Shown one piece after another: positions 7,475 through 56,798 of a stretch of 64,000 nt of DNA (position 1 is the first letter of the stretch; each line of letters opens with the position of its first letter). A program made the position numbers and the translations under genes. This DNA comes from Nitrososphaeria archaeon (GTDB lineage Archaea > Thermoproteota > Nitrososphaeria > Nitrososphaerales > JACAEJ01), in NCBI GenBank assembly GCA_029775925.1, contig JARVKB010000004.1, forward strand, positions 1-64,000. The letters are read 5' to 3'. Below the pieces are notes generated by a model. That model saw nothing but the letters and a program-made list of their open reading frames with translations. It had not been told where the DNA came from and searched no databases.

Positions 7475-8545
7475 GTGCTAAGTATGGACATAGAAGAAAA
7501 AATGAACATAATCAACAGACCACCTACTGAGGAAATAGTCACTATCAATGATCTTAGGTTGCTTTTAGAAAATAAAGAGCATCCAACACATTATATAGGT
7601 TTTGAGATTTCAGGGCTTATGCATATAGGTACTTTATTAATATCAGGCTTTAAAATAAACGATTTCATAAAGGCAGGAATTGATTGTAGAGTATTCTTAG
7701 CAGATTGGCATAGCTATATCAACAATAAGTTTGGTGGGGATTGGGATAAAATAAGAATAGCATCTAAATATTATGAAGAAGCCTTCAAATTTTTTTGTCC
7801 TGGAGTTAAGGTAGTTCATGGATCGGAGCTATATAGTGGAAATGATGAGTACTGGAAGAATCTAGTAAAATTTTCAAAGCATATAACGTTAGCAAGAAAT
7901 ATTAGATGCTTAACAATTATGGGAAGAAGTAAGAAGGAAAAGTTAGATTTTGCCCAATATTTATACCCTCCTATGCAAGCTATAGATATTAAGGCTATGG
8001 ATATCGATATAGCTCACGCTGGGATGGATCAGCGTAAAGTTCATATGCTGGCACGAGAAGTATTCCCGAAGTTAAGATGGAAAGTACCTGTAGCTATTCA
8101 TCATAGCTTGCTTCCAGGGTTGTCTGAACCTTCTCGTTTAGGATTGGACGAAAATTCTAAGCTTGATACAATTTTCTCCAGTAAGATGAGTAAATCTAAA
8201 CCCTCTACTTGTATATTCATTCATGACGATGCCGATGAAATTGAGAAGAAAATACAAAAGGCATGGTGCCCGGAAGGCATCGTAGAGTATAACCCGATAT
8301 TAGAGATGGCAAAGCAAATAATCTTTCATGAGTTTAATACTTTAGAAATCGATAGGCCTGCAAAATTCGGTGGAAAGATAATTTTTGAAGATTTTTACGA
8401 GTTAGAAAAGGCTTATAAAGAAAAAAGACTTCATCCAGCAGATTTGAAAGCAGGAGTAGCAAAAGCTATTGATAAGATAGTAGCACCAATAAGGTCTCAT
8501 TTTAAGGGTAAGCCTGAACTACTAGAAGTCTTTAAATCTGATTAA
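7475..8545 (+). CDS. tyrS: Tyrosyl-tRNA synthetase
   Basis: Class I aaRS; HIGTL and KMSKSKP motifs, ...AHAGMDQRKVHMLARE. Confidence 0.85.
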   Translation: MLSMDIEEKMNIINRPPTEEIVTINDLRLLLENKEHPTHYIGFEISGLMHIGTLLISGFKINDFIKAGIDCRVFLADWHSYINNKFGGDWDKIRIASKYYEEAFKFFCPGVKVVHGSELYSGNDEYWKNLVKFSKHITLARNIRCLTIMGRSKKEKLDFAQYLYPPMQAIDIKAMDIDIAHAGMDQRKVHMLAREVFPKLRWKVPVAIHHSLLPGLSEPSRLGLDENSKLDTIFSSKMSKSKPSTCIFIHDDADEIEKKIQKAWCPEGIVEYNPILEMAKQIIFHEFNTLEIDRPAKFGGKIIFEDFYELEKAYKEKRLHPADLKAGVAKAIDKIVAPIRSHFKGKPELLEVFKSD

Positions 8546-8553
8546 ATAGTAAA

Positions 8554-9111
8554 TTATCGATAATATTCTGGTTCTATCCTTCTAAGGAAGTAAAAAGTGT
8601 AAAAGGATATTATTGTTATTGAGAGAAATATTTTCGTAGCAAAGACAAGATTAAAACGCACTTCAGGGTTAGGAAAAGGATTGATAAGTATGTCAGGGTT
8701 TAGCTCGCCCAATATTTCGCTGGCACTCATAAGACTTCCCCAAAGAGTAAAGTTGAACAGAACCTCGTACAAAGCCATGGATCCTGCAAAGAAAGCGATT
8801 AACATGAATAAGTGTCTAGCGAATTTGGGAAATTTTGATATCATTTCCTTATTTAATTCAAGGAGTGAAAACCAAAAGACAATTAAAGATGCCATAAACC
8901 AGGTTATAGGTTTGGCGTAAATTGGAAAAATTGTAGGAGGAGGAAATTCTGTATTAACGAAAGTCTCTCCGACGACCTTTACCCCATACATTAACGTAGT
9001 AATTGCGCCATAAACTGTAACTGTAATTAAGATGATAAAAGAAATGAGACAGATTATTTTGTACATGATTCTGATTTTATTTTCTTCTTTAGATGAATTC
9101 ATCAATCTCAA
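8554..9111 (-). CDS. Membrane protein of unknown function
   Basis: ORF 185 aa, about four hydrophobic helices. Confidence 0.55.
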   Translation of the reverse strand: MRLMNSSKEENKIRIMYKIICLISFIILITVTVYGAITTLMYGVKVVGETFVNTEFPPPTIFPIYAKPITWFMASLIVFWFSLLELNKEMISKFPKFARHLFMLIAFFAGSMALYEVLFNFTLWGSLMSASEILGELNPDILINPFPNPEVRFNLVFATKIFLSITIISFYTFYFLRRIEPEYYR

Positions 9112-9165
9112 ATTTATTCCTTGATGACTTTTATGTACTTAAAAACTTTGCTTCTCCTATATCAC

Positions 9166-9195
9166 TTTATTATAGGAATTAATTCCTATAATAAA
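9166..9195. repeat. 30-bp perfect palindrome TTTATTATAGGAATT/AATTCCTATAATAAA
   Basis: Read directly; intergenic between the divergent 8554-9111(-) and 9734-10393(+) genes. Confidence 0.9.
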
Positions 9196-9653
9196 ATTAT
9201 TAAAATCAAAAATATTCGTAAGAAACAAATTTTTTATAGCTATTGGCAAGATTAATAAAGCCTGAAAAATTAGTTATTTATATTAAGATGTTGATAACAA
9301 ATAAGCTTATTTAGTGTAATGTCGGTCCATCATTTTAGATAAATTCAATGCATACAACTTTGCTCTCTAATAGATTAATCATCACCGAATTTATCCATCA
9401 TTGCTAAATCGATCTAGGTACGAAAGAAGGACTAACAACATAAGCAATTTATTATCCTTTTACTAAATTGGATCTAACTATAAAGGGAAGCAAGTGAATG
9501 TGTTGTAAATTTTTGTTATAAATTGCCCATATTAATCTAAATTTCTAGAAGTGAAAGTTCGTGAACGAATCGAATAAAAAATTAGCATTAGTAAATAGCT
9601 AAAGGAAATGAAGAATAAGGTGTGAATCTTTTTGGTGTTTAGGATGTATTAAT

Positions 9654-9675
9654 CAAGTGCAAAAATATTTTTGCA
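9654..9675. promoter_or_regulatory. Candidate operator CAAGTGCAAAAATATTTTTGCA (contains 18-bp palindrome at 9658-9675)
   Basis: Identical 22-nt string occurs at 56618-56639, upstream of the second methyltransferase operon. Confidence 0.65.
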
Positions 9676-9733
9676 TCAAGGAAGAATAGAAGAAAAATTT
9701 AAAAAAAACAACGTTATTTATAATCGAAAACAA

Positions 9734-10393
9734 ATGTCCCAGGAAGAAATTTTAGCCGAACTTGCTAAAGCAGTGATAGACGGTGACGTGGACAAGGCAA
9801 AGTATTTGGCACATAAAGTATTGGAGTTAAAAATAGATCCTTATAAAGCTATCATGGATGGATGCGCTGCAGGAATGAGGATAGTGGGGGAAAAATATCA
9901 AAATGGCGAAATGTTCATTCCTGAGTTACTATATTCAGCTGAAGCGATGTATGCTGCAACAGACGTCTTAAGCCCTCACATAAAAGCAGAAAAAATTCCA
10001 TATAGCGGTAAGGTAGTAATAGGTGTTGTTGAGGGCGATATACATGATATTGGCAAGAACATCTTGGTAACACTTTTAAAGGCAAGTGGGTTTGAAGTTG
10101 TAGACTTAGGCAGAGATGTGCCGACAAAAGATTTTGTGCAAAAAGCAAAGGATGAAAAAGCAGAAATCATAGCCATGTCAACTTTGATGACCACAACAGC
10201 TCCAGGAATGAAAAAGGTCATAGATGTATTGTATGAGGAGGGTATAAGAGATAAGGTAAAGACTATTATTGGAGGAGCAGCCGTTTCAAAAGAATTTGCT
10301 AAGGCTATAGGTGCAGATGCTTATGGAGAAGAGGTAGTCGACGGCGTAGAGATGGTCAAAAATCTTATGAGTTCTATTAAGAGAGGGGGATGA
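9734..10393 (+). CDS. Corrinoid (B12-binding) methyltransferase corrinoid protein, MtaC/MtbC/MttC family
   Basis: MSQEEILAELAKAVIDGD..., GDIHDIGKN B12-binding motif, ...IIGGAAVS. The track start at TTG 9671 falls inside the palindrome; ATG 9734 preferred. Confidence 0.88.
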   Translation: MSQEEILAELAKAVIDGDVDKAKYLAHKVLELKIDPYKAIMDGCAAGMRIVGEKYQNGEMFIPELLYSAEAMYAATDVLSPHIKAEKIPYSGKVVIGVVEGDIHDIGKNILVTLLKASGFEVVDLGRDVPTKDFVQKAKDEKAEIIAMSTLMTTTAPGMKKVIDVLYEEGIRDKVKTIIGGAAVSKEFAKAIGADAYGEEVVDGVEMVKNLMSSIKRGG

Positions 10394-11457
10394 AAAGTTT
10401 GGTAAAACCAATTGAAAGAGTTGTAGCTGCCTTAACATATAAGGATCCGGATAGGGTTCCTGCTGCACCATTAGTTTGTGGAGCATCAAGAAGAGTTTAT
10501 GGAGTTACATACGATGTTTGGTCTAGGGACCCTGTTATTGCTGCCAAATCTCTTATTGCTGCACAAGAGTTGATAGGTTTTGATGGTTTCTTGACATTAG
10601 TGGACTTGAGCGTAGAGCCCGCTGCCTTCGGTCAAAAAGTCTTATATCCTGTCGAAAGTACTGCTTTATCCGCAGCTTTCAAAGGTGATATGTTAATAAA
10701 GAGCGTAGACGATTACGATAAACTCGAATATGTAGACCCTAAAAAAGCTGACAGGATGAGAGATGTGATAAAAATCTGTGAGATACTTGTTCAAGCGAAA
10801 GGAAAAGAAGTTCCAACTTTGGGATTTGTATACGGTCCTGCCGGAACCCTATCTATGATGAGAACTTTAGAGAAGCTTAGTTTAGACCTAGTGAAAAATA
10901 AGTCAGCAGTTCTTAAAGGGCTGAAAATCGTAAATGATGTGCTATTTGATTACGCAAAAGCTCAGTGTGAAACAGGAGTTCCAGGGGTCGTTCTAGACGT
11001 TCTTTACGCATCAAAAATGATATGGAGTAGAAAGACATACGATGAGTTTGAAGGTCAGTTATGTTCAAAAATCGCTGATGAAATAAGAAAGCATAATGCT
11101 CTTGTAGTACTTCATAACTGTGGCCATGGGCCCTTCTTTGACACGATGATAAGCTGGTATAAGCCTGCCGCAATATCGTTCCACTATGTTCCTGATGATT
11201 GCAAAGACTATGCTGACACAAAGGAGAAGTATGGGAAAAAGACTGTACTGATAGGTCAAGCTGACAATCCTAAAGTAATCTACCCAGGTACTCCTGAAGA
11301 AGTTATGAACCATTGTGCGGAACAAATTAAAGTATATGGTCCCGGTAGTGGTTTCATACTTGCCACAGGTTGTGAATTTCCACCTAACGCTTCATTACTG
11401 AACGCTAGAGCAATGATAGAGGCTGCTGAGAAGTATGGTAAGTATCCAATGGCTTAA
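10390..11457 (+). CDS. Uroporphyrinogen decarboxylase-family methyltransferase (MtaA/MtbA/MtoB-like)
   Basis: UroD fold; HNCGHGP zinc-type motif; C-terminal GFILATGCEFPPNASLLNARAMIEAAEKYG; ATG overlaps the stop of the corrinoid gene. Confidence 0.85.
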   Translation: MKSLVKPIERVVAALTYKDPDRVPAAPLVCGASRRVYGVTYDVWSRDPVIAAKSLIAAQELIGFDGFLTLVDLSVEPAAFGQKVLYPVESTALSAAFKGDMLIKSVDDYDKLEYVDPKKADRMRDVIKICEILVQAKGKEVPTLGFVYGPAGTLSMMRTLEKLSLDLVKNKSAVLKGLKIVNDVLFDYAKAQCETGVPGVVLDVLYASKMIWSRKTYDEFEGQLCSKIADEIRKHNALVVLHNCGHGPFFDTMISWYKPAAISFHYVPDDCKDYADTKEKYGKKTVLIGQADNPKVIYPGTPEEVMNHCAEQIKVYGPGSGFILATGCEFPPNASLLNARAMIEAAEKYGKYPMA

Positions 11458-11975
11458 CCATTGGGTACTTCATTTTTCTTTTTTTGAATTATCAATCGAA
11501 TCAAAGATGGATTTATTCCTTCTAACCATTCATTAGGTGCTTTTTCAACACTCGAGAGTGGGGCAAGCTTCACTATTCTTTGTTTTGCTCCAAGTTTGAT
11601 GAGCTCTACAACAAGAAATAAGAAAATCTTTCCATTCATTATGCCTATGTCCATGGCATACGTTCTGAAACCTTCTTTTATACGATACCTTCTTGCCGTT
11701 ATTCTGGCTAGAAATCTTGCTTCAAGCTTAGAGTAAAGTGAAGGACTTACAGTAGGAGGGAGTTTACTTGGAACTTCTCTTAGTTCATCTATTCTTTTTT
11801 CAAGTTCTAATAACATCTTCCGAATCTCTTCAGGGTTTTGCCTATTTTCTAATCTAAATCCTTCTATAGTGATATTCTCGTACTGTGATTCTTCTATCAA
11901 GGGATAAATTTCTATAGCTGAAGGGTAGTCCTGACAAAAAATGATATGTATTTCTTCATCCTTTGTTTCTGACAT
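11454..11975 (-). CDS. Hypothetical protein, last gene of the methyltransferase accessory operon
   Basis: ORF 173 aa, convergent with the UroD-type methyltransferase (4-nt overlap). Confidence 0.6.
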   Translation of the reverse strand: MSETKDEEIHIIFCQDYPSAIEIYPLIEESQYENITIEGFRLENRQNPEEIRKMLLELEKRIDELREVPSKLPPTVSPSLYSKLEARFLARITARRYRIKEGFRTYAMDIGIMNGKIFLFLVVELIKLGAKQRIVKLAPLSSVEKAPNEWLEGINPSLIRLIIQKKKNEVPNG

Positions 11976-12006
11976 GAAACATCATCTTAAAATATGAATT
12001 AAATTA

Positions 12007-12498
12007 TTACTCATTCTTTTTTCGTTCCTCTTCCTTTGGTTGTATTGGAATGTCGAACTTATCAAAATACTCATGCTCTTTCTCAATTTCTATATTAAAA
12101 CCATAATTCAACAATACTTCATTCGAAGCCTCAAGAGTCGCCATCTTGACTTGAGATTTGTCTATTCCCTGTACTATGCTATTTATAACAAGGTACGCTT
12201 GAGTTATAGGCTCTGTTATGCTACTTTCAACATAAACTCCTTTTTCTAAGCCTATCGTATCTGCTTTTAGGTACCCGTGTTTGGTCTTCATATAGGATTT
12301 TATATGACCGATGAATTTTGCACCTTTCTCAATACAATAGGAAGCTATTCTTAACATTAACTTATTACCCATCTCTTTGATAGCATCTATATTGATAGGC
12401 TCTGATCGAGTAAGCCTAAAAGCAACAGCGTAGCCACTTACGCCAAAGGGCTCATAGCATGCTTTAGTTGAACTGCTTTCAACCTTTTCTGAACTCAT
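12007..12498 (-). CDS. Hypothetical protein in the accessory operon
   Basis: ORF 163 aa between 11454 and the CobW-like gene; family not recognised. Confidence 0.6.
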   Translation of the reverse strand: MSSEKVESSSTKACYEPFGVSGYAVAFRLTRSEPINIDAIKEMGNKLMLRIASYCIEKGAKFIGHIKSYMKTKHGYLKADTIGLEKGVYVESSITEPITQAYLVINSIVQGIDKSQVKMATLEASNEVLLNYGFNIEIEKEHEYFDKFDIPIQPKEEERKKNE

Positions 12499-12512
12499 GA
12501 ATTAATCACCTT

Positions 12513-13148
12513 TTATCTTATCTGATAAGCTGGATATTCTACAGGCTCTGTAATAAGCTTCGCCAATTCTACCATACCGTCTCCTCTAATAGAGGATATT
12601 CTCATGATTTTTGCTTTCTGGTTTATCTTTTTAACTTCCTGCTCACAATCAACTAACTGCTCCTCATTTACAACATCGATCTTACTTATGGCTATAATAT
12701 CTGCATCAGAGATTTGCCTGATCACTATGTTTCCTAATATGTCATTGAAGAGCAGCTCTTCCGGTCTTGTCGCATCGAATAAAACAACAGCCGGTCCCAA
12801 ATTTATGTCACAATCTCTTTTTGCCATAAGGGCGGCCAACTTAACTTGATTTGGTATAGCTACTCCTGTCGGCTCTACTAAAATAAAGTCAGGTTTAAAG
12901 GTTTGAGATAGTAAAATGAGTGTATTAGTAAAGCTTGTGGCTATCTCACAACAAATGCAACCTCCACCTAAGTCTTTAACTCTTAACCCATACTCTTCTA
13001 CAACCTTGCCATCTACAGGAATCTCTCCAATTTCGTTTACAACCAGAGCAACTCTCTTTTTAAAATCACCACTTAAAGTTCTAGCCAAGGATATTATGGC
13101 TGATGTTTTTCCAGAACCAAGAAAGCCTGCTATCTGAATTATTCTCAT
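12513..13148 (-). CDS. CobW/HypB/UreG-like P-loop GTPase (metallochaperone type)
   Basis: GFLGSGKTSAI Walker A, GGGCICCE metal motif, SKIDVV. Confidence 0.8.
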   Translation of the reverse strand: MRIIQIAGFLGSGKTSAIISLARTLSGDFKKRVALVVNEIGEIPVDGKVVEEYGLRVKDLGGGCICCEIATSFTNTLILLSQTFKPDFILVEPTGVAIPNQVKLAALMAKRDCDINLGPAVVLFDATRPEELLFNDILGNIVIRQISDADIIAISKIDVVNEEQLVDCEQEVKKINQKAKIMRISSIRGDGMVELAKLITEPVEYPAYQIR

Positions 13149-13173
13149 AACTAGGATAAAGAGTATTTCCCTC

Positions 13174-15123
13174 TTATATTTTTCTTATAACTGGTCGTCC
13201 AATGGCTGATACTTTTATTTCTGACCAAACGAAACCTACTTTTGGGAATATTCCATCTCTCCTATCTATCTTAATCTTTAAGTCCTCTGCACCAGATCTT
13301 TTAGCTAACTTTGTAGCTTCTTCTGTCCCCATCTTTATTGCAAAGTTTATGGCTTCTTCTATGGTTCCAAAAATATATCTTCCTGGGAATACCACATACC
13401 TATCAGGTTTTACCTCTTTTGCTATGTACATCTCAAAAGAACCTATCACACTCCCAACAAGGGAACCTACAGCTGCTCCAACTTCATGATGTTCAGGTAT
13501 GATTGCTAAAGTTCCAAGCCTTCTAGCCACTTCTGGTAAAAATAGGTAGACTGGTGCACCTATGCCTATCAATGGTATATCCAGCTTTGCTAGAACTCGA
13601 AAATCTCCATCATTATTTCCATCAGAAATCTTTCTTATTATTTCAGAGCATGCTATACATTTTTGATTTAAATCCCATTTATTTAGCTTTAACATCATCT
13701 TTTCAAATATTCTCGATACCAACTTTTCTACAATCAATTGCCATATCTTTTTTTGAAGCTCGTCAAGCGTCATTCCATTCTTTCTGGCGAAAAGGTCGGC
13801 ACCCAGGATAGCAGCATCAACGTCTCCTGCAGTATAAATCCCCTTTGCATGCATGATATCTGTTGGAGTTAAGCCTATCCCAATTATGTACCCTCTCTCC
13901 ATCAGGAACGAAATCAACAAATCAGCGATGGGGAAATCTGTCATATTATTGCTTATCTCAAGAAGGGTTGTTGGCTCCAGCTCTTGAACCGTCTTTAGAA
14001 ACTTTTCAGACAATCCGCCTATGTTTTCGGCTTTCCGAGGTGCCTGACTGACGGTAATAAAATCTGTAGTCTTGTATTGTTCCATCTTCTTTAGTAAATT
14101 AGGAAATATTGATGCAGCAAATGCAAGAGGTATAACTCTTTGTGGACCTAAATCGATACCTTTTTCAGGATCTATATGTATCCATCCATCTCCTCCTATT
14201 CCCCAAGCATCAGCATCTACTGCCTTTACTCTTGTCTTCCAGCCTGCAATACGAACTCCGTCCTCAACCACGTGAGGGGCATTCCCTTTGGAAGTTGTTA
14301 TTATCGATGTTGTACTTCCCATGTCTATTACTACGGCATCTTCTTTGCCAGCTAGGAATAGCCCACCAAGTACACTTGCTGCAGGTCCTGACTGAATTCC
14401 TTCTATCGGTCTTTCTAAAGCAACTTCTTCATTCATAAGAGAACCGTCACCTTTTACTATCATTAAGGGTACATTCAAGCCCTTCTGATCTAATGCATCT
14501 CTTATTTCTCTTATGAGATTTTGGACTATAGGAATTAGCCTTGCGTTAAGGACCGCTGTAACAGTCCTCTCATAAATTCCGAGCTCTGTTGCAAGTTCAT
14601 ATCCACAAGTGACTGGTTTTCCAGTCTTTTTCTTTATCCATTCTTTGACAGTCAATTCATGCATCGGATTTCTTACGCTAAAGTATCCTGATACTGCAAA
14701 GGAGTCAACATTTTTATTCATATTTTCAATGGTTAAGATGACTTCATCTATATCTAACTGTGCTTGTTCAACACCGTCAGGTCCATGGCCTCCTTTAACA
14801 GTCATGATTGTTGCTGCAGGTATGTCCCAAGTTTTCTCAGGTTCAAATCCAATTAAAATCAAGCCGACCTTTGCACCTTTTCCTTCAATGACAGCATTTG
14901 TGGCAAGAGTTGAAGCAAGAGAAACCAAAACAATTTCATTCGCAGGAATACCGCTGATCGATAAAACCTTATTTATCGATTCAATGATTCCAACAGATAA
15001 ATCATAATGCGTTGTCCTTGATTTTGTCTTTGCAACTATTTTCTTATCGTCCATTCTCATAATTACTGCATCTGTATGAGATCCGCCCGTGCTTACACCT
15101 ATCCCAAACAATAATCTCACCAT
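13174..15123 (-). CDS. Hydantoinase/oxoprolinase-family ASKHA protein, candidate corrinoid-protein reactivase
   Basis: GVSTGGSHTDAVIM, ...STLATNAVIEGKGAKVGLIL, VIDMGSTTSIITTSKG motifs; adjacent to the corrinoid methyltransferase genes. Confidence 0.75.
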   Translation of the reverse strand: MVRLLFGIGVSTGGSHTDAVIMRMDDKKIVAKTKSRTTHYDLSVGIIESINKVLSISGIPANEIVLVSLASTLATNAVIEGKGAKVGLILIGFEPEKTWDIPAATIMTVKGGHGPDGVEQAQLDIDEVILTIENMNKNVDSFAVSGYFSVRNPMHELTVKEWIKKKTGKPVTCGYELATELGIYERTVTAVLNARLIPIVQNLIREIRDALDQKGLNVPLMIVKGDGSLMNEEVALERPIEGIQSGPAASVLGGLFLAGKEDAVVIDMGSTTSIITTSKGNAPHVVEDGVRIAGWKTRVKAVDADAWGIGGDGWIHIDPEKGIDLGPQRVIPLAFAASIFPNLLKKMEQYKTTDFITVSQAPRKAENIGGLSEKFLKTVQELEPTTLLEISNNMTDFPIADLLISFLMERGYIIGIGLTPTDIMHAKGIYTAGDVDAAILGADLFARKNGMTLDELQKKIWQLIVEKLVSRIFEKMMLKLNKWDLNQKCIACSEIIRKISDGNNDGDFRVLAKLDIPLIGIGAPVYLFLPEVARRLGTLAIIPEHHEVGAAVGSLVGSVIGSFEMYIAKEVKPDRYVVFPGRYIFGTIEEAINFAIKMGTEEATKLAKRSGAEDLKIKIDRRDGIFPKVGFVWSEIKVSAIGRPVIRKI

Positions 15124-15135
15124 ATTTACAATAAT

Positions 15136-15387
15136 CTATTCTAAACCTTGTTTTTGCTCTTTATCTAATTTTAATTTTCGTCTAAACTTTTGGTTAATGT
15201 TAAATCCTGTATCTATAAGTTTTGTTACCTGATTAGTGGCTTCGACCAACTGTCTTTTTAAGATTGTTCGATTGTTTATAACAGTTGGAAAGCAATAGGA
15301 GATGCGTAATAAGTTATAAGAAGGCATCCAATGTTGCATTTCCTTCATTTCACCGCCATTATTCGGTGATTTACGTTTGGATAACAA
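15136..15387 (-). CDS. Hypothetical small protein
   Basis: ORF 83 aa directly upstream of the ASKHA gene; may be non-coding. Confidence 0.3.
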   Translation of the reverse strand: MLSKRKSPNNGGEMKEMQHWMPSYNLLRISYCFPTVINNRTILKRQLVEATNQVTKLIDTGFNINQKFRRKLKLDKEQKQGLE

Positions 15388-15608
15388 TTATGAGTTTGCC
15401 AATTTTGCCATCTTCTCATATTCACTAAGAGTATCATCTCCATCTGCTTTAACTAAAAATAGTCTTTTAACCTTTTTTTATAAAGATTTACTAGTGAAAA
15501 GATAAATTAGACTTTTACTCGAAGTTAAATTAAGCATAAAAATTAAGTGCAAATTTTTTGAAGCAAATATCAAAAGGGTTAATTTATTGCTATTAAAAGA
15601 ACGAGCCG

Positions 15609-42349: not shown

Positions 42350-42928
42350 TTGGGAAAAACGATATTAAATAATGATTCCATAATTTTGATAGAAATGACA
42401 AGCAAATTTAACGAAGACGGTAAATCGGCCGGTAAGACCGAAGATCAGATAAGAGAAGCAAAAATTTTTGCTTCAAGGCTTCAAAGAGCAATAAGCACAG
42501 GTCACACAACACAGAGTAAAATGAGAGAAGTTAATAAATTCATTAGCCATCGCTTGATCACTAAGACGGCTTCCATTCTTCAAAACATAGACAATCTTGC
42601 AAAAGAAACTCGAAGTATAACAATAAAGGAGGATTTTAACAGAATTTACATAAAACTTCTTAGTATTTTTAATGAGTTTAAGCTTATGGAAAGTAAGGGA
42701 TATGAGACCATGGTAAGATCAGGAAAGGTAGATGTAGATAGATTGAATGATTTAATAGATGTGGACACAGAATTATCAAACATGGTTGTTTTACTTTACG
42801 AGTTTGTTGAAAGATTATCGTTAAAAAAATCTACCAAAGTTAATGAACGTAAAGAAATTTTACATATGTTGGATGATGTGATTCTAGCTTTGAAGAGGCG
42901 TAATGAAATCATAAAAACAAAGATTTAG
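42350..42928 (+). CDS. Hypothetical helical protein
   Basis: ORF 192 aa; start uncertain (TTG or internal ATG). Confidence 0.5.
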   Translation: MGKTILNNDSIILIEMTSKFNEDGKSAGKTEDQIREAKIFASRLQRAISTGHTTQSKMREVNKFISHRLITKTASILQNIDNLAKETRSITIKEDFNRIYIKLLSIFNEFKLMESKGYETMVRSGKVDVDRLNDLIDVDTELSNMVVLLYEFVERLSLKKSTKVNERKEILHMLDDVILALKRRNEIIKTKI

Positions 42929-52746: not shown

Positions 52747-54126
52747 TTAATTTATATTAGTCTTTGAGAAAGTTTTTTCCCTGTAAAGAGATTTTCCATC
52801 TATGCTTGTAATATTGAAAAGGCAGAACGGTATGAGTTTCTTGTCAGGCGTAACAACATGTATGCAGCATTCTTGAACTCTTTCTAATTCAACGTTCCAT
52901 ACGTCTTGGAAGGCCATCGTTGAAACTGTTAAGTAATTTTCTGACATCCTTTTTATTAAATCCATCCAAGTCCCTGGCTCACACCCACATAATAAGTTAT
53001 CTCCTAAACCCAACTGTTCCATAATAGATTCTTCTGGGAACTTCCAAAGATCTTTAATAGCATCACGAGTCTTCTTTGATATATCTTCTACTTCACACGA
53101 TGGGCAGGAAAGATTGCTAGTAAGTGGTAAAAGCTTACCATTCTCTAAAACGACAGAGTAGCTTCTAGCATCACAATGCACGTTAGGGCAAGAAGTAGGA
53201 GTAAAGTTCTCAACTTTTAGCTCTCCCCTTGTTTGGGCCTCTATAGCTTTTAGGATATCAGGTATGGTCACTCTATCGTTATTATTTGGTAGAGAAGGGT
53301 ATCTGCCAAAATAACTTAGAGGTTGAAAATGAACACCGTTTACCGTTGGAACCCATTTTTTAGCAAAATTTATTATATCACCTATTTGATCATAATTGAC
53401 TCCTTTTTCAATCACAGGTACGAGTACTACACCTATCTCTAACTTTGAACAGTTTTCAAGAGCTTTAAGTTTAACATCAAGAAGGTCTAAACCACACCTT
53501 TTTTCATATACGTCCTTAGTTAAGCCATCAAAAGAGAAATAAAGTGCATCCACACCTTTCTCTTTCAATTCTTTAAAATAATCAAAATCTTTACTCAATC
53601 TTATGGCATTTGTGTTCAACTCTATATAATCTATGCCCATTTCCTTTCCCATAGCAACTATTTCTGGGAGATCATCTCTCACTGTGGGTTCGCCACCGCT
53701 TATTTGAACACATATGGGTTTAGGACAGTTTTTTAATAATGTCTCATACATTCCTTCAATAGTTTGGATGTCTGGATGATAATTGTATGATTTAGCACTT
53801 GCAAAGCAATAGGGGCAATTTAAATTACATCTATTTGTAATTTCTAAGACTGCAACACAAGTTCTTTGTTTATGAGCAGGGCACAGTCCACAATCGTTTG
53901 GGCATCCATTCTTAGAGTCAGTGATTGTCTGATCTGGTTTCTTCTTTTTGACGTTAAACTTAAAGCGGTCTATATAAGAGGTTACCCCTCTCCAAATGAT
54001 CGTTTTAAAAGATCCGTGATCTGGGCAAGATTTTTCAAGAAAAACATCATCCTTCTCAACAACTTTTCTAGCAGGAATCTTTCTTAAACATTTTGGACAG
54101 AGACTTTCAGTCTCACCTATTAGCAT
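52747..54126 (-). CDS. Radical SAM protein with N-terminal Cys motifs (TrsS/tetraether-synthase-like architecture)
   Basis: LCPKCLRKIPAR...KSCPDHGSFKTIIW; CPNDCGLCPAHKQRTCVAVLEITNRCNLNCPYCFAS; C-terminal CCIHVVTPDKKLIPFCLFN. Confidence 0.82.
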   Translation of the reverse strand: MLIGETESLCPKCLRKIPARKVVEKDDVFLEKSCPDHGSFKTIIWRGVTSYIDRFKFNVKKKKPDQTITDSKNGCPNDCGLCPAHKQRTCVAVLEITNRCNLNCPYCFASAKSYNYHPDIQTIEGMYETLLKNCPKPICVQISGGEPTVRDDLPEIVAMGKEMGIDYIELNTNAIRLSKDFDYFKELKEKGVDALYFSFDGLTKDVYEKRCGLDLLDVKLKALENCSKLEIGVVLVPVIEKGVNYDQIGDIINFAKKWVPTVNGVHFQPLSYFGRYPSLPNNNDRVTIPDILKAIEAQTRGELKVENFTPTSCPNVHCDARSYSVVLENGKLLPLTSNLSCPSCEVEDISKKTRDAIKDLWKFPEESIMEQLGLGDNLLCGCEPGTWMDLIKRMSENYLTVSTMAFQDVWNVELERVQECCIHVVTPDKKLIPFCLFNITSIDGKSLYREKTFSKTNIN

Positions 54127-54171
54127 ATTAACAATAAATGCATGAAATCTTAAATACTTTTTTAGATCTAT

Positions 54172-54549
54172 TTATCTAAATGGATTTTCTCCAACATCAT
54201 TATAATATTCTAATAGTACTTTATTAGCCCTTCTAGATACTCTCCTTTTTTCAAATTTTGAATAAACGATACGAAGTGTTCTAAGATCCCATTCTGTATC
54301 GCATTTCGGACATCTAGCAAGCTCACAACCTCTGACACTACCTGGGCAGCCTTGGCAACTTATGGCTCTGGCCCATAAAAGGCTAAATTCAGCGTTGCAT
54401 TCTGGGCATCTTACTAATTTGGCAGTCTTCCAAACCATGCCGGTAGGGTCGATCTGGTTTAAGCAAGTAGGAGTCTCGTAGAAGGATCTATGAACGTTAA
54501 AATCTTTCCTTCTTTCTTCATACAATTTCCTTAATTGTGAAGTTTTCAT
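54172..54549 (-). CDS. Cys-rich zinc-ribbon/redox-type small protein
   Basis: RCPECNAEF...CQGCPGSVRGCELARCPKCDTEW; 125 aa; within the operon. Confidence 0.65.
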   Translation of the reverse strand: MKTSQLRKLYEERRKDFNVHRSFYETPTCLNQIDPTGMVWKTAKLVRCPECNAEFSLLWARAISCQGCPGSVRGCELARCPKCDTEWDLRTLRIVYSKFEKRRVSRRANKVLLEYYNDVGENPFR

Positions 54550-54610
54550 AATCGATCAATATTGATAATAAAGATATTTAAAGCTATCTAAAAAAATAAA
54601 AGGTGGTGCC

Positions 54611-55096
54611 TTATGCCCTCTTCTTTTCGAAGAGCATTTCAGCCACAGCAACTGGCTTTGCCGCTATGTCTTCTTCAATATAACTTTCTTGACATTTAGG
54701 GCAGGTAAGAGTTGGGGCCATTCTAACGATGCCCATGTATTCTAGATCGAACTGTCCTCGGACTGTTTGGACATCGTCCTTGGCACACCACCAGTCCTTT
54801 ACTTCTTCTGGGACTGTATAGACTAAGTTCTTCATACGCATCTTATGGCTATAGACCTTCTTGATTACATATGCTGTGACTGGGTGGGTTCCGGGAGCTG
54901 CTGGAGCATACATTACATATAGGGTTATATTATCCATGATCTTTTTTGCTAAATTTTCTCCAGTGACTTTATTGATGAGCTTTGCCTTCTTCTCTTCAGC
55001 TTCATAAACTAATTTTTTGCACATATCAGCAGAGATGCCCTTTTGGGCTAGGGCATTCTCAATCTCTTTTGGAACCAAAACATCTATCATTACCAT
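54611..55096 (-). CDS. Small redox-type protein with C-terminal CPKC...EEDIA motif (resembles the DVU_1557-type family, by eye)
   Basis: LTCPKCQESYIEEDIAAKPVAVAEMLFEKKRA; 161 aa. Confidence 0.55.
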   Translation of the reverse strand: MVMIDVLVPKEIENALAQKGISADMCKKLVYEAEEKKAKLINKVTGENLAKKIMDNITLYVMYAPAAPGTHPVTAYVIKKVYSHKMRMKNLVYTVPEEVKDWWCAKDDVQTVRGQFDLEYMGIVRMAPTLTCPKCQESYIEEDIAAKPVAVAEMLFEKKRA

Positions 55097-55099
55097 TTT

Positions 55100-56317
55100 T
55101 CACCACGTCCCATACGTTCCATAATCCTTACACGCTTTTACCGCTGCTAATGTACAGCCAGGATTTGTAATCAAAGGAGTCTCACAAGTAGTTCCCAATA
55201 TACATCCTCTAGGCGAATCCCTTGCTTTGAGGAGTTGACTCTTGCTTTGTTCGTATATGAAAGAGAAGTTCGGTTCTATCATCCTCTTCCCATCTACCGT
55301 TGTGAGTAGAGTCATCCTATTGCCAAATTCCTTCTTTAATAGATCCCCTGGGAATACATCATCACCATAGTATCCTATGTGTATAACTGTGAAAGGCGTG
55401 GTAATAACATCTCTCCACATCGGGTAATCTCTTGAATGATCTCCACAAAGATGATACCATAATTGAGGGCCACCACCACCTGCAAGCGCCCTTCTTACAA
55501 AGTCTCTTTGATGATCGAAGGAGAATTCCTTTACGTACTTCGGTGGTAAGACTGTGGAGTTGGCTAAAACACTACCTATTACCATCATGTCAAACCCATA
55601 TCTATCAGCTGTAAGAGATGCCCCATTCGCACTAGTGTAAGCAAGGGCATCAAGAATCTTATGGCAAGCCTTAGGTTCTTTTCTAGTCCATATGATGAAC
55701 TTCTCAGGACCTACTAACTCAGCAGCCATTGAGAATAAGCAGAATACATTATGCATAGGTAACATCATGTCAGGTATGTTGGCTTTTTCATAATCAAAAG
55801 CTCTCCAATGAAGCTCGGTTGTCTTGCATTTATCTGGCGTCAAATCTTCTTTCTCAAACTTCTGTATTTTATCAGCATCTTCAGGATTCTTTATCGGTCT
55901 ATCTCCTACAACGATCCATGGAAGTGTATTGGTTGTTTGTAGCTTAACCCCGTACTTCTCCAAGAATACGTTAGAATAGAAGAAGTGGGCGACTGGTAAA
56001 AGATCAAACAGCTCATTAAAATATGCTACACAATGAACAGCAATCTCGGGATACTCATAGAAATCTCTGTTAGTGAAACCTAGCAAAGTGGTTGCGTGTG
56101 CCATGACTATAGGATCGAAATCTATTCTATCTTTGAATACATCAACGAAAGGAGATGCAAAACGTGTAACAGACCCTGTGTGCCATTTTTTATGTGATTC
56201 AGTATCATGTGAGATGAAGTGAGATGGTAGTTTATCAATTGGAACAGTAGGTTGGTAGCTCATATTCTTTCGGAAAAGAAATATCGACTCCCTTATATAA
56301 GAATTTTGAATTAACAT
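55100..56317 (-). CDS. Uroporphyrinogen decarboxylase-family methyltransferase (second copy)
   Basis: WYHLCGDHSRD HxCG motif; C-terminal CILGTTCETPLITNPGCTLAAVKACKDYGTYG parallels 10390-11457. Confidence 0.8.
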   Translation of the reverse strand: MLIQNSYIRESIFLFRKNMSYQPTVPIDKLPSHFISHDTESHKKWHTGSVTRFASPFVDVFKDRIDFDPIVMAHATTLLGFTNRDFYEYPEIAVHCVAYFNELFDLLPVAHFFYSNVFLEKYGVKLQTTNTLPWIVVGDRPIKNPEDADKIQKFEKEDLTPDKCKTTELHWRAFDYEKANIPDMMLPMHNVFCLFSMAAELVGPEKFIIWTRKEPKACHKILDALAYTSANGASLTADRYGFDMMVIGSVLANSTVLPPKYVKEFSFDHQRDFVRRALAGGGGPQLWYHLCGDHSRDYPMWRDVITTPFTVIHIGYYGDDVFPGDLLKKEFGNRMTLLTTVDGKRMIEPNFSFIYEQSKSQLLKARDSPRGCILGTTCETPLITNPGCTLAAVKACKDYGTYGTW

Positions 56318-56326
56318 CGTTATATT

Positions 56327-56599
56327 CTAAATCGCTTCTTTTAACTTCTTCTTTGCATAAAAGTAGGTCCTTCTACTTATCAACCCATTCCGAAAGTCAT
56401 CTTCAAGAAGACTTATGGCCAGAGTAGTCCCTCTTAATTCAAGATATTTTTGGATTTTGCTCTTTCTTCCAATCTTAGCGTCTAACTTTTGTATAATATT
56501 TAATACAGGCTCTCTCTCGATAACAGCAAGATTGTAAACTCTTTCAAGAATAGCAGTGAAAGCCTTCTCCCCAAGTTTCTCCAATAGTCTTCGAAACAT
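56327..56599 (-). CDS. Small basic protein, first gene of the second methyltransferase operon
   Basis: MFRRLLEKLGEKAFTAILERVYNLAVIEREP...; the track start at TTG 56626 is inside the palindrome, so ATG 56599 is preferred. Confidence 0.55.
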   Translation of the reverse strand: MFRRLLEKLGEKAFTAILERVYNLAVIEREPVLNIIQKLDAKIGRKSKIQKYLELRGTTLAISLLEDDFRNGLISRRTYFYAKKKLKEAI

Positions 56600-56618
56600 A
56601 TATTCTAATTTTCTTTCC

Positions 56619-56642
56619 AAGTGCAAAAATATTTTTGCACTT
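56619..56642. promoter_or_regulatory. 24-bp perfect palindrome AAGTGCAAAAATATTTTTGCACTT, candidate operator
   Basis: Centre is ~31 nt upstream of ATG 56599; 22 nt (56618-56639) identical to 9654-9675. Confidence 0.7.
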
Positions 56643-56798
56643 TGATAATTAAAATTTTTCTTTTTATGGTCTGAATGATATTAAAACAAGACTTAACTTC
56701 TACCAAGGATTTTCGATTATCTTGATTTATCTTTGTGCTATTCTCTTTTATTTTTCAATATGGTTAAACTGTATATTCTGTTTTTAGTTTTTCAGAGT

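Follow-up and report, generated by a model that had tools for sequence, protein, structure and literature searches.

A conserved palindrome as a putative operator linking corrinoid and UroD-type methyltransferase loci in uncultured Nitrososphaeria

Most of what is known about how corrinoid methyltransferases are regulated comes from cultured methanogens. Archaeal activators usually bind upstream of the TATA box, and operators that overlap the transcription start are familiar from archaeal repressors of, for example, the Lrp, MDR1 and Phr types. In Methanosarcina, according to the work cited in PMC11218639, the Msr regulators MsrA/B activate mtaCB1, and MsrD/E activate mtaCB2 and repress mtaCB3. 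In the same genus, HdrR binds a palindromic motif in the hdrBCA promoters (PMC11218639). The type 1 mlp gene clusters encode MtaA/CmuA-like methyltransferases (PMC10418091).

The palindrome described here may work in the manner of the Msr and HdrR cases, by analogy and with no claim of membership in either system. As with the Msr proteins, it would involve archaeal control of corrinoid methyltransferase operons, some of them activated and others repressed; unlike them, the host belongs to the Nitrososphaeria, a winged-helix protein of the DUF4443 family is the candidate regulator, and a TrsS/UroD operon would be among the targets. The HdrR case, for which a dedicated bound regulator is described, likewise has a conserved palindrome at an archaeal promoter that serves methyl/one-carbon metabolism, but the target genes and the organism are different, and the likeness is one of description rather than of site sequence. 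The resemblance to operators of the Lrp, MDR1 and Phr types is likewise one of position and not of sequence, one copy of the palindrome (copy 2, below) lying between the TATA box and the transcription start that are predicted there. The type 1 mlp clusters provide a further parallel, being UroD-type methyltransferases in non-methanogens that are partly linked to methyl-sulfur/methyl-selenium metabolism (PMC10418091), although the TrsS-UroD operon found here is not assigned to a type 1 cluster.

The window, i.e., the whole 64,000-nt stretch of DNA analysed, comes from a group of Nitrososphaeria known from metagenome assemblies, with relatives in JARVKD01, CALLJF01 and JACAEJ01. The genome of the window is termed G000; G001 and G002 belong to the same genus and G006 to another. 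The genome-wide tests were pattern searches. An exact search of the window placed the 22-mer CAAGTGCAAAAATATTTTTGCA at 9654-9675 and 56618-56639, and thus confirmed the two copies given in the earlier note, except that the end assigned there to the first copy (9676) lies one base too far. The 18-bp palindrome that had been noticed inside the 22-mer, TGCAAAAATATTTTTGCA, is indeed present at both places (9658-9675 and 56622-56639). Both copies show dyad symmetry: copy 2 extends to a perfect 24-bp palindrome (56619-56642), and copy 1 is perfectly palindromic over 18 bp and is extended on its left side only, by the same AAG as in copy 2. The 22 nt comprise the whole identical stretch, and outside the palindrome the two copies share nothing.

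The palindrome is rare. The window was said to hold no other full copy, which agrees with our search at up to 3 mismatches to the 22-mer, where the sole additional match is copy 2 read on the reverse strand. Dinucleotide-shuffled sequences gave no match at the same tolerance, and a Markov-1 null predicts about 0.01 perfect palindromes of at least 24 bp per window. The whole assembly (1.40 Mb in 34 contigs) contains only 2 sites, versus 0.036 expected per 1.4 Mb for the 22-mer with up to 3 mismatches, a rough figure derived from a Markov-1 null built from the window and resting on a single match in 39 Mb. One further match to the 18-mer, with 2 mismatches, occurs in the assembly at C4:53739; it lies within a coding ORF and was dismissed as a regulatory site.

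Each copy precedes the first gene of a UroD operon, as had been proposed, with the clarification that the UroD gene is the second gene in both cases; the first gene encodes a corrinoid protein at copy 1 and an unannotated basic ORF at copy 2. The features of the copy-2 locus are as follows:

56648..56653, minus strand: TTTAAT, TATA box of the copy-2 operon, predicted from the sequence
56619..56642, no strand assigned: putative operator copy 2, AAGTGCAAAAATATTTTTGCACTT, a perfect 24-bp palindrome conserved in G001, G002 and G006
56330..56626, minus strand: small basic all-helical protein, first gene (97-99 aa, pI 9.9), whose TTG start lies within the palindrome or at its edge
55100..56317, minus strand: UroD-family protein of 405 aa, second gene (PF01208, 2.7e-15), conserved in 4 genomes
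54611..55096, minus strand: DUF7479 protein (DVU_1557-like redox protein), below the NCBIfam cut-off
54172..54549, minus strand: 125-aa cysteine-rich, zinc-ribbon-like protein (weak matches only), conserved in 4 genomes
52747..54126, minus strand: TrsS-type radical SAM protein (NF045646, 552.9 bits; cut-off 490)

In each of the four genomes, the predicted TATA box, TTTAAT, begins exactly 14 nt ahead of the TGCA core. Since the distance between an archaeal TATA box and the transcription start is fairly standard, the copy-2 transcript is predicted to begin inside the palindrome, which would overlap both the predicted transcription start and the TTG start codon. The codons of the small ORF that precede its first ATG (HLERKLEY) show only synonymous changes between genomes, so that the TTG within the palindrome, or at its end, is the probable start of translation; the predicted mRNA is apparently leaderless or nearly so. 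The gene upstream of copy 2 differs (DUF2284 in the window versus DUF169 in the other genomes), and the site therefore belongs to the downstream operon. The UroD, DUF7479, 125-aa and TrsS genes form an operon (52747-56317, minus strand) conserved in four genomes. In bacteria, TrsS is counted among the selenoprotein families (PMC13188914); the literature searched contains no description of a Trs system beyond a table entry, and the TrsS-UroD operon itself is undescribed.

The copy-1 locus comprises the following features:

9655..9678, no strand assigned: putative operator copy 1, AAGTGCAAAAATATTTTTGCATCA, with the perfect 18-bp palindrome at 9658-9675 and a diverged orthologue in G001 (L044:4108)
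9696..9704, plus strand: AATTTAAAA, TATA box predicted for the copy-1 operon, about 33 nt ahead of the ATG
9734..10393, plus strand: corrinoid (B12-binding) protein, first gene (PF02310/PF02607; TIGR02370 over the cut-off)
10390..11457, plus strand: UroD-family (MtaA/CmuA-like) methyltransferase, second gene (PF01208, 1.3e-50; below the MtaA/CmuA cut-off)

The sole close orthologue of this operon is found in G001 (81% identity), where the site has diverged to AGTGCGAAAATAATTATGCACT (3 mismatches in 22). The outer AGTGC/GCACT arms of the G001 site are intact and its AT-rich middle has drifted, which suggests that the arms are the points of contact. The centre of the site lies 67.5 nt from the ATG in the window versus 70.5 nt in G001, and the upstream gene is a divergent membrane gene in the former versus DsrE in the latter. 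In both genomes the predicted TATA box falls between the palindrome and the ATG, the G001 counterpart, CTTAAATA, being equally far from its ATG. About 30 bp separate copy 1 from the predicted TATA box that follows it, and the site would thus lie upstream of the promoter, in an activator-like position. The copy-1 transcript is predicted to start about 8 nt before the ATG at 9734. Across this group, TATA-like hexamers show a mild enrichment 25-44 nt before ATGs, as would be expected if leaders are short.

Two additional features were observed around the copy-1 operon. A perfect 30-bp palindrome, TTTATTATAGGAATTAATTCCTATAATAAA, occupies 9166-9195, about 55 nt upstream of where the membrane gene on the minus strand (8554-9111) begins, and is longer than every palindrome in the null sequences. 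Convergent to the operon (11454-15123, minus strand) are the genes for two unannotated proteins, a CobW-type GTPase and a hydantoinase/oxoprolinase A-like protein, a group that also adjoins the corrinoid operon in G001.

The distribution of the motif among relatives was assessed with the 22-mer at up to 3 mismatches. The motif occurs in four of the seven genomes of the family, with 2 sites in G000, 3 in G001, 2 in G002 and 1 in G006, and its conservation thereby spans two genera. The three remaining genomes, all of genus g2, contain no site at this tolerance; the copy-2 operon is also missing from them, and the DUF7479 and small basic proteins are absent as well. Among approximately 297 other genomes of the order, 7 single strays were found (about 0.024 per genome), in agreement with the Markov null of 0.036 per 1.4 Mb, and the reversed-pattern control gave no matches. 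A UroD-family gene is located within about 1 kb of all eight sites in the four genomes, a distance within which only about 1.4% of the sequence falls; the association amounts to ~3e-6 when the three orthologous locus groups are taken as independent units. Every genome with the copy-2 operon, four in all, keeps copy 2 at that promoter, and copy 1 is kept in both genomes with a close orthologue of its operon, such an orthologue being absent from G002 and G006.

The earlier note had proposed a scan of this genome and its relatives with mismatches, and had named random scatter, or absence from orthologous loci, as evidence against its reading. The sites proved to be confined to methyltransferase loci in the four genomes rather than scattered (eight of eight near UroD), and the motif recurs at the orthologous loci, intact in the case of copy 2 and diverged in the only other close orthologue of the copy-1 operon.

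A third site, outside the window, is situated between convergent genes in G000, G001 and G002, flanked by a RACo-UroD operon and a DUF4443 winged-helix gene. The corresponding cluster in G000 (L043, C21:12000-28000, at 7803-15496) encodes MtaB (PF12176, 1e-190), RACo and the DUF4443 winged-helix protein, together with two corrinoid and two UroD proteins, and represents a methanol-methyltransferase-type system. In G001 and G002 the third site is full, forms part of a palindrome of about 32 nt and lies between convergent protein genes. In G000 the palindrome, AATAGTGCAAAAATTTTTGCACTATT, is 2 bp shorter, directly follows the DUF4443 stop codon and has T-rich tracts on both flanks. The DUF4443 orthologue of G006 has no palindrome beside it. 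The third site does not fit a simple promoter operator, and its convergent setting outside the window qualifies that reading; it could terminate transcription, act as a roadblock or serve as promoter for a non-coding RNA. Within the window, a perfect 20-bp palindrome, GAAGCAAAAATTTTTGCTTC, occurs at 42455-42474 inside an ORF (42350-42928), and its core, GCAAAAATTTTTGC, equals the core of the 2-bp shorter third site.

The palindrome, a rare and conserved site associated with methyltransferase loci, is probably the operator of one dimeric transcription factor that coordinates corrinoid/UroD methyltransferase operons in this Nitrososphaeria lineage. The factor would recognise the AGTGC/GCACT half-sites, with 12 bp of AT-rich DNA between them. 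At copy 2 the site separates the predicted TATA box from the predicted mRNA start, so that binding would block initiation, and such repression would be lifted by an inducer; at copy 1, where the predicted TATA box comes about 30 bp after the site, the factor may activate. The two sites take up different positions with respect to the predicted promoters, so the sign of control may not be the same at both. We infer the binding of a protein, its likely identity and the sign of its control from the sequence and its setting; the proposal that one regulator controls both loci is a strong one, and it is plausible that the two methyltransferase loci act in one pathway. An operator and a regulon of this familiar kind are well supported, and the regulator and this particular regulon are undescribed. 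Several observations argue against the operator: copy 1 is present in only two genomes, copies 1 and 2 sit differently relative to their predicted promoters, and the third site, between convergent genes, offers no obvious job for an operator and is 2 bp shorter in G000.

The leading candidate for the regulator, put forward tentatively, is the DUF4443 winged-helix protein (DUF4443/PH0730-like; L043:12041-12694, plus strand), which has recognised N-terminal DNA-binding domains and is encoded within the methanol cluster, adjoining the third site. A close orthologue is found only in the four motif-bearing genomes, among which the helix-turn-helix stretch is well conserved; the literature searched contains no mention of DUF4443. 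The small basic protein, encoded at the most conserved site (copy 2), is a second and rather doubtful candidate. It has no family match above cut-off, no Pfam match and no match in a PDB sequence search, and a fold search with a model of modest quality (pLDDT 73.6, pTM 0.42) returned nothing below E 1. Its assignment as an HTH_45 winged helix was rejected, given no PF14947/Pfam match and an hhalign probability below 1%; the only such hint, E 0.005 in one of 400 genomes, is expected by chance at that number. Both candidates and the copy-2 operon share a single presence/absence pattern, and therefore co-occurrence cannot separate the candidates; the regulator is possibly some third, unseen protein. 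It is unlikely that the small protein represents a new archaeal transcription factor family and uses the one palindrome both to repress its own TrsS-UroD operon and to activate the corrinoid operon; if true, this would link an undescribed radical-SAM/UroD pathway to a corrinoid methyltransferase.

Alternatively, the palindrome might be transcribed and act as RNA, either as a terminator or 3'-end hairpin or as a hairpin that hides the copy-2 start codon. The convergent position of the third site in three genomes, its placement in G000 right after the DUF4443 stop codon between T-rich tracts, and the overlap of the copy-2 palindrome with the TTG start would all suit such a role. An intrinsic or bidirectional terminator should follow a gene at every copy, however, and copy 1 of the window resides in a divergent intergenic region with no gene ending upstream. 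Moreover, conservation extends beyond the pairing to the sequence itself, even to the central ATAT, which a hairpin loop could do without, and the internal mismatches of the G001 copy 1 would leave only a short stem, so that we regard a role as RNA as quite improbable.

It is very improbable that both promoters have the AT-rich centre, AAAAATATTTTT, as their TATA box and that the palindrome is a strong basal promoter element without a dedicated regulator. The core is AT-rich, and at copy 2 the palindrome centre lies 30 nt before the first ATG of the small ORF (56599), but the synonymous-only HLERKLEY codons indicate that translation probably starts before that ATG, inside or at the end of the palindrome, and a separate TTTAAT occurs at fixed spacing upstream. 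Basal elements would also be expected at many promoters, whereas this motif is unique, and GTGC/GCAC arms are, to our knowledge, no feature of TATA or BRE elements. Chance similarity or a recent short duplication with no common function, which would account for an identity of only 22 nt and nothing common beyond the palindrome, is scarcely credible, as the motif is rare, has been kept over two genera and lies near UroD genes at eight of eight sites; the comparison with relatives already contradicts it.

A conserved putative operator thus ties methyltransferase loci together in uncultured Nitrososphaeria. It groups the undescribed TrsS-UroD operon with a corrinoid protein-UroD pair, and the two may share a methyl route. 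The 24-bp palindrome could serve as bait for finding the regulator.
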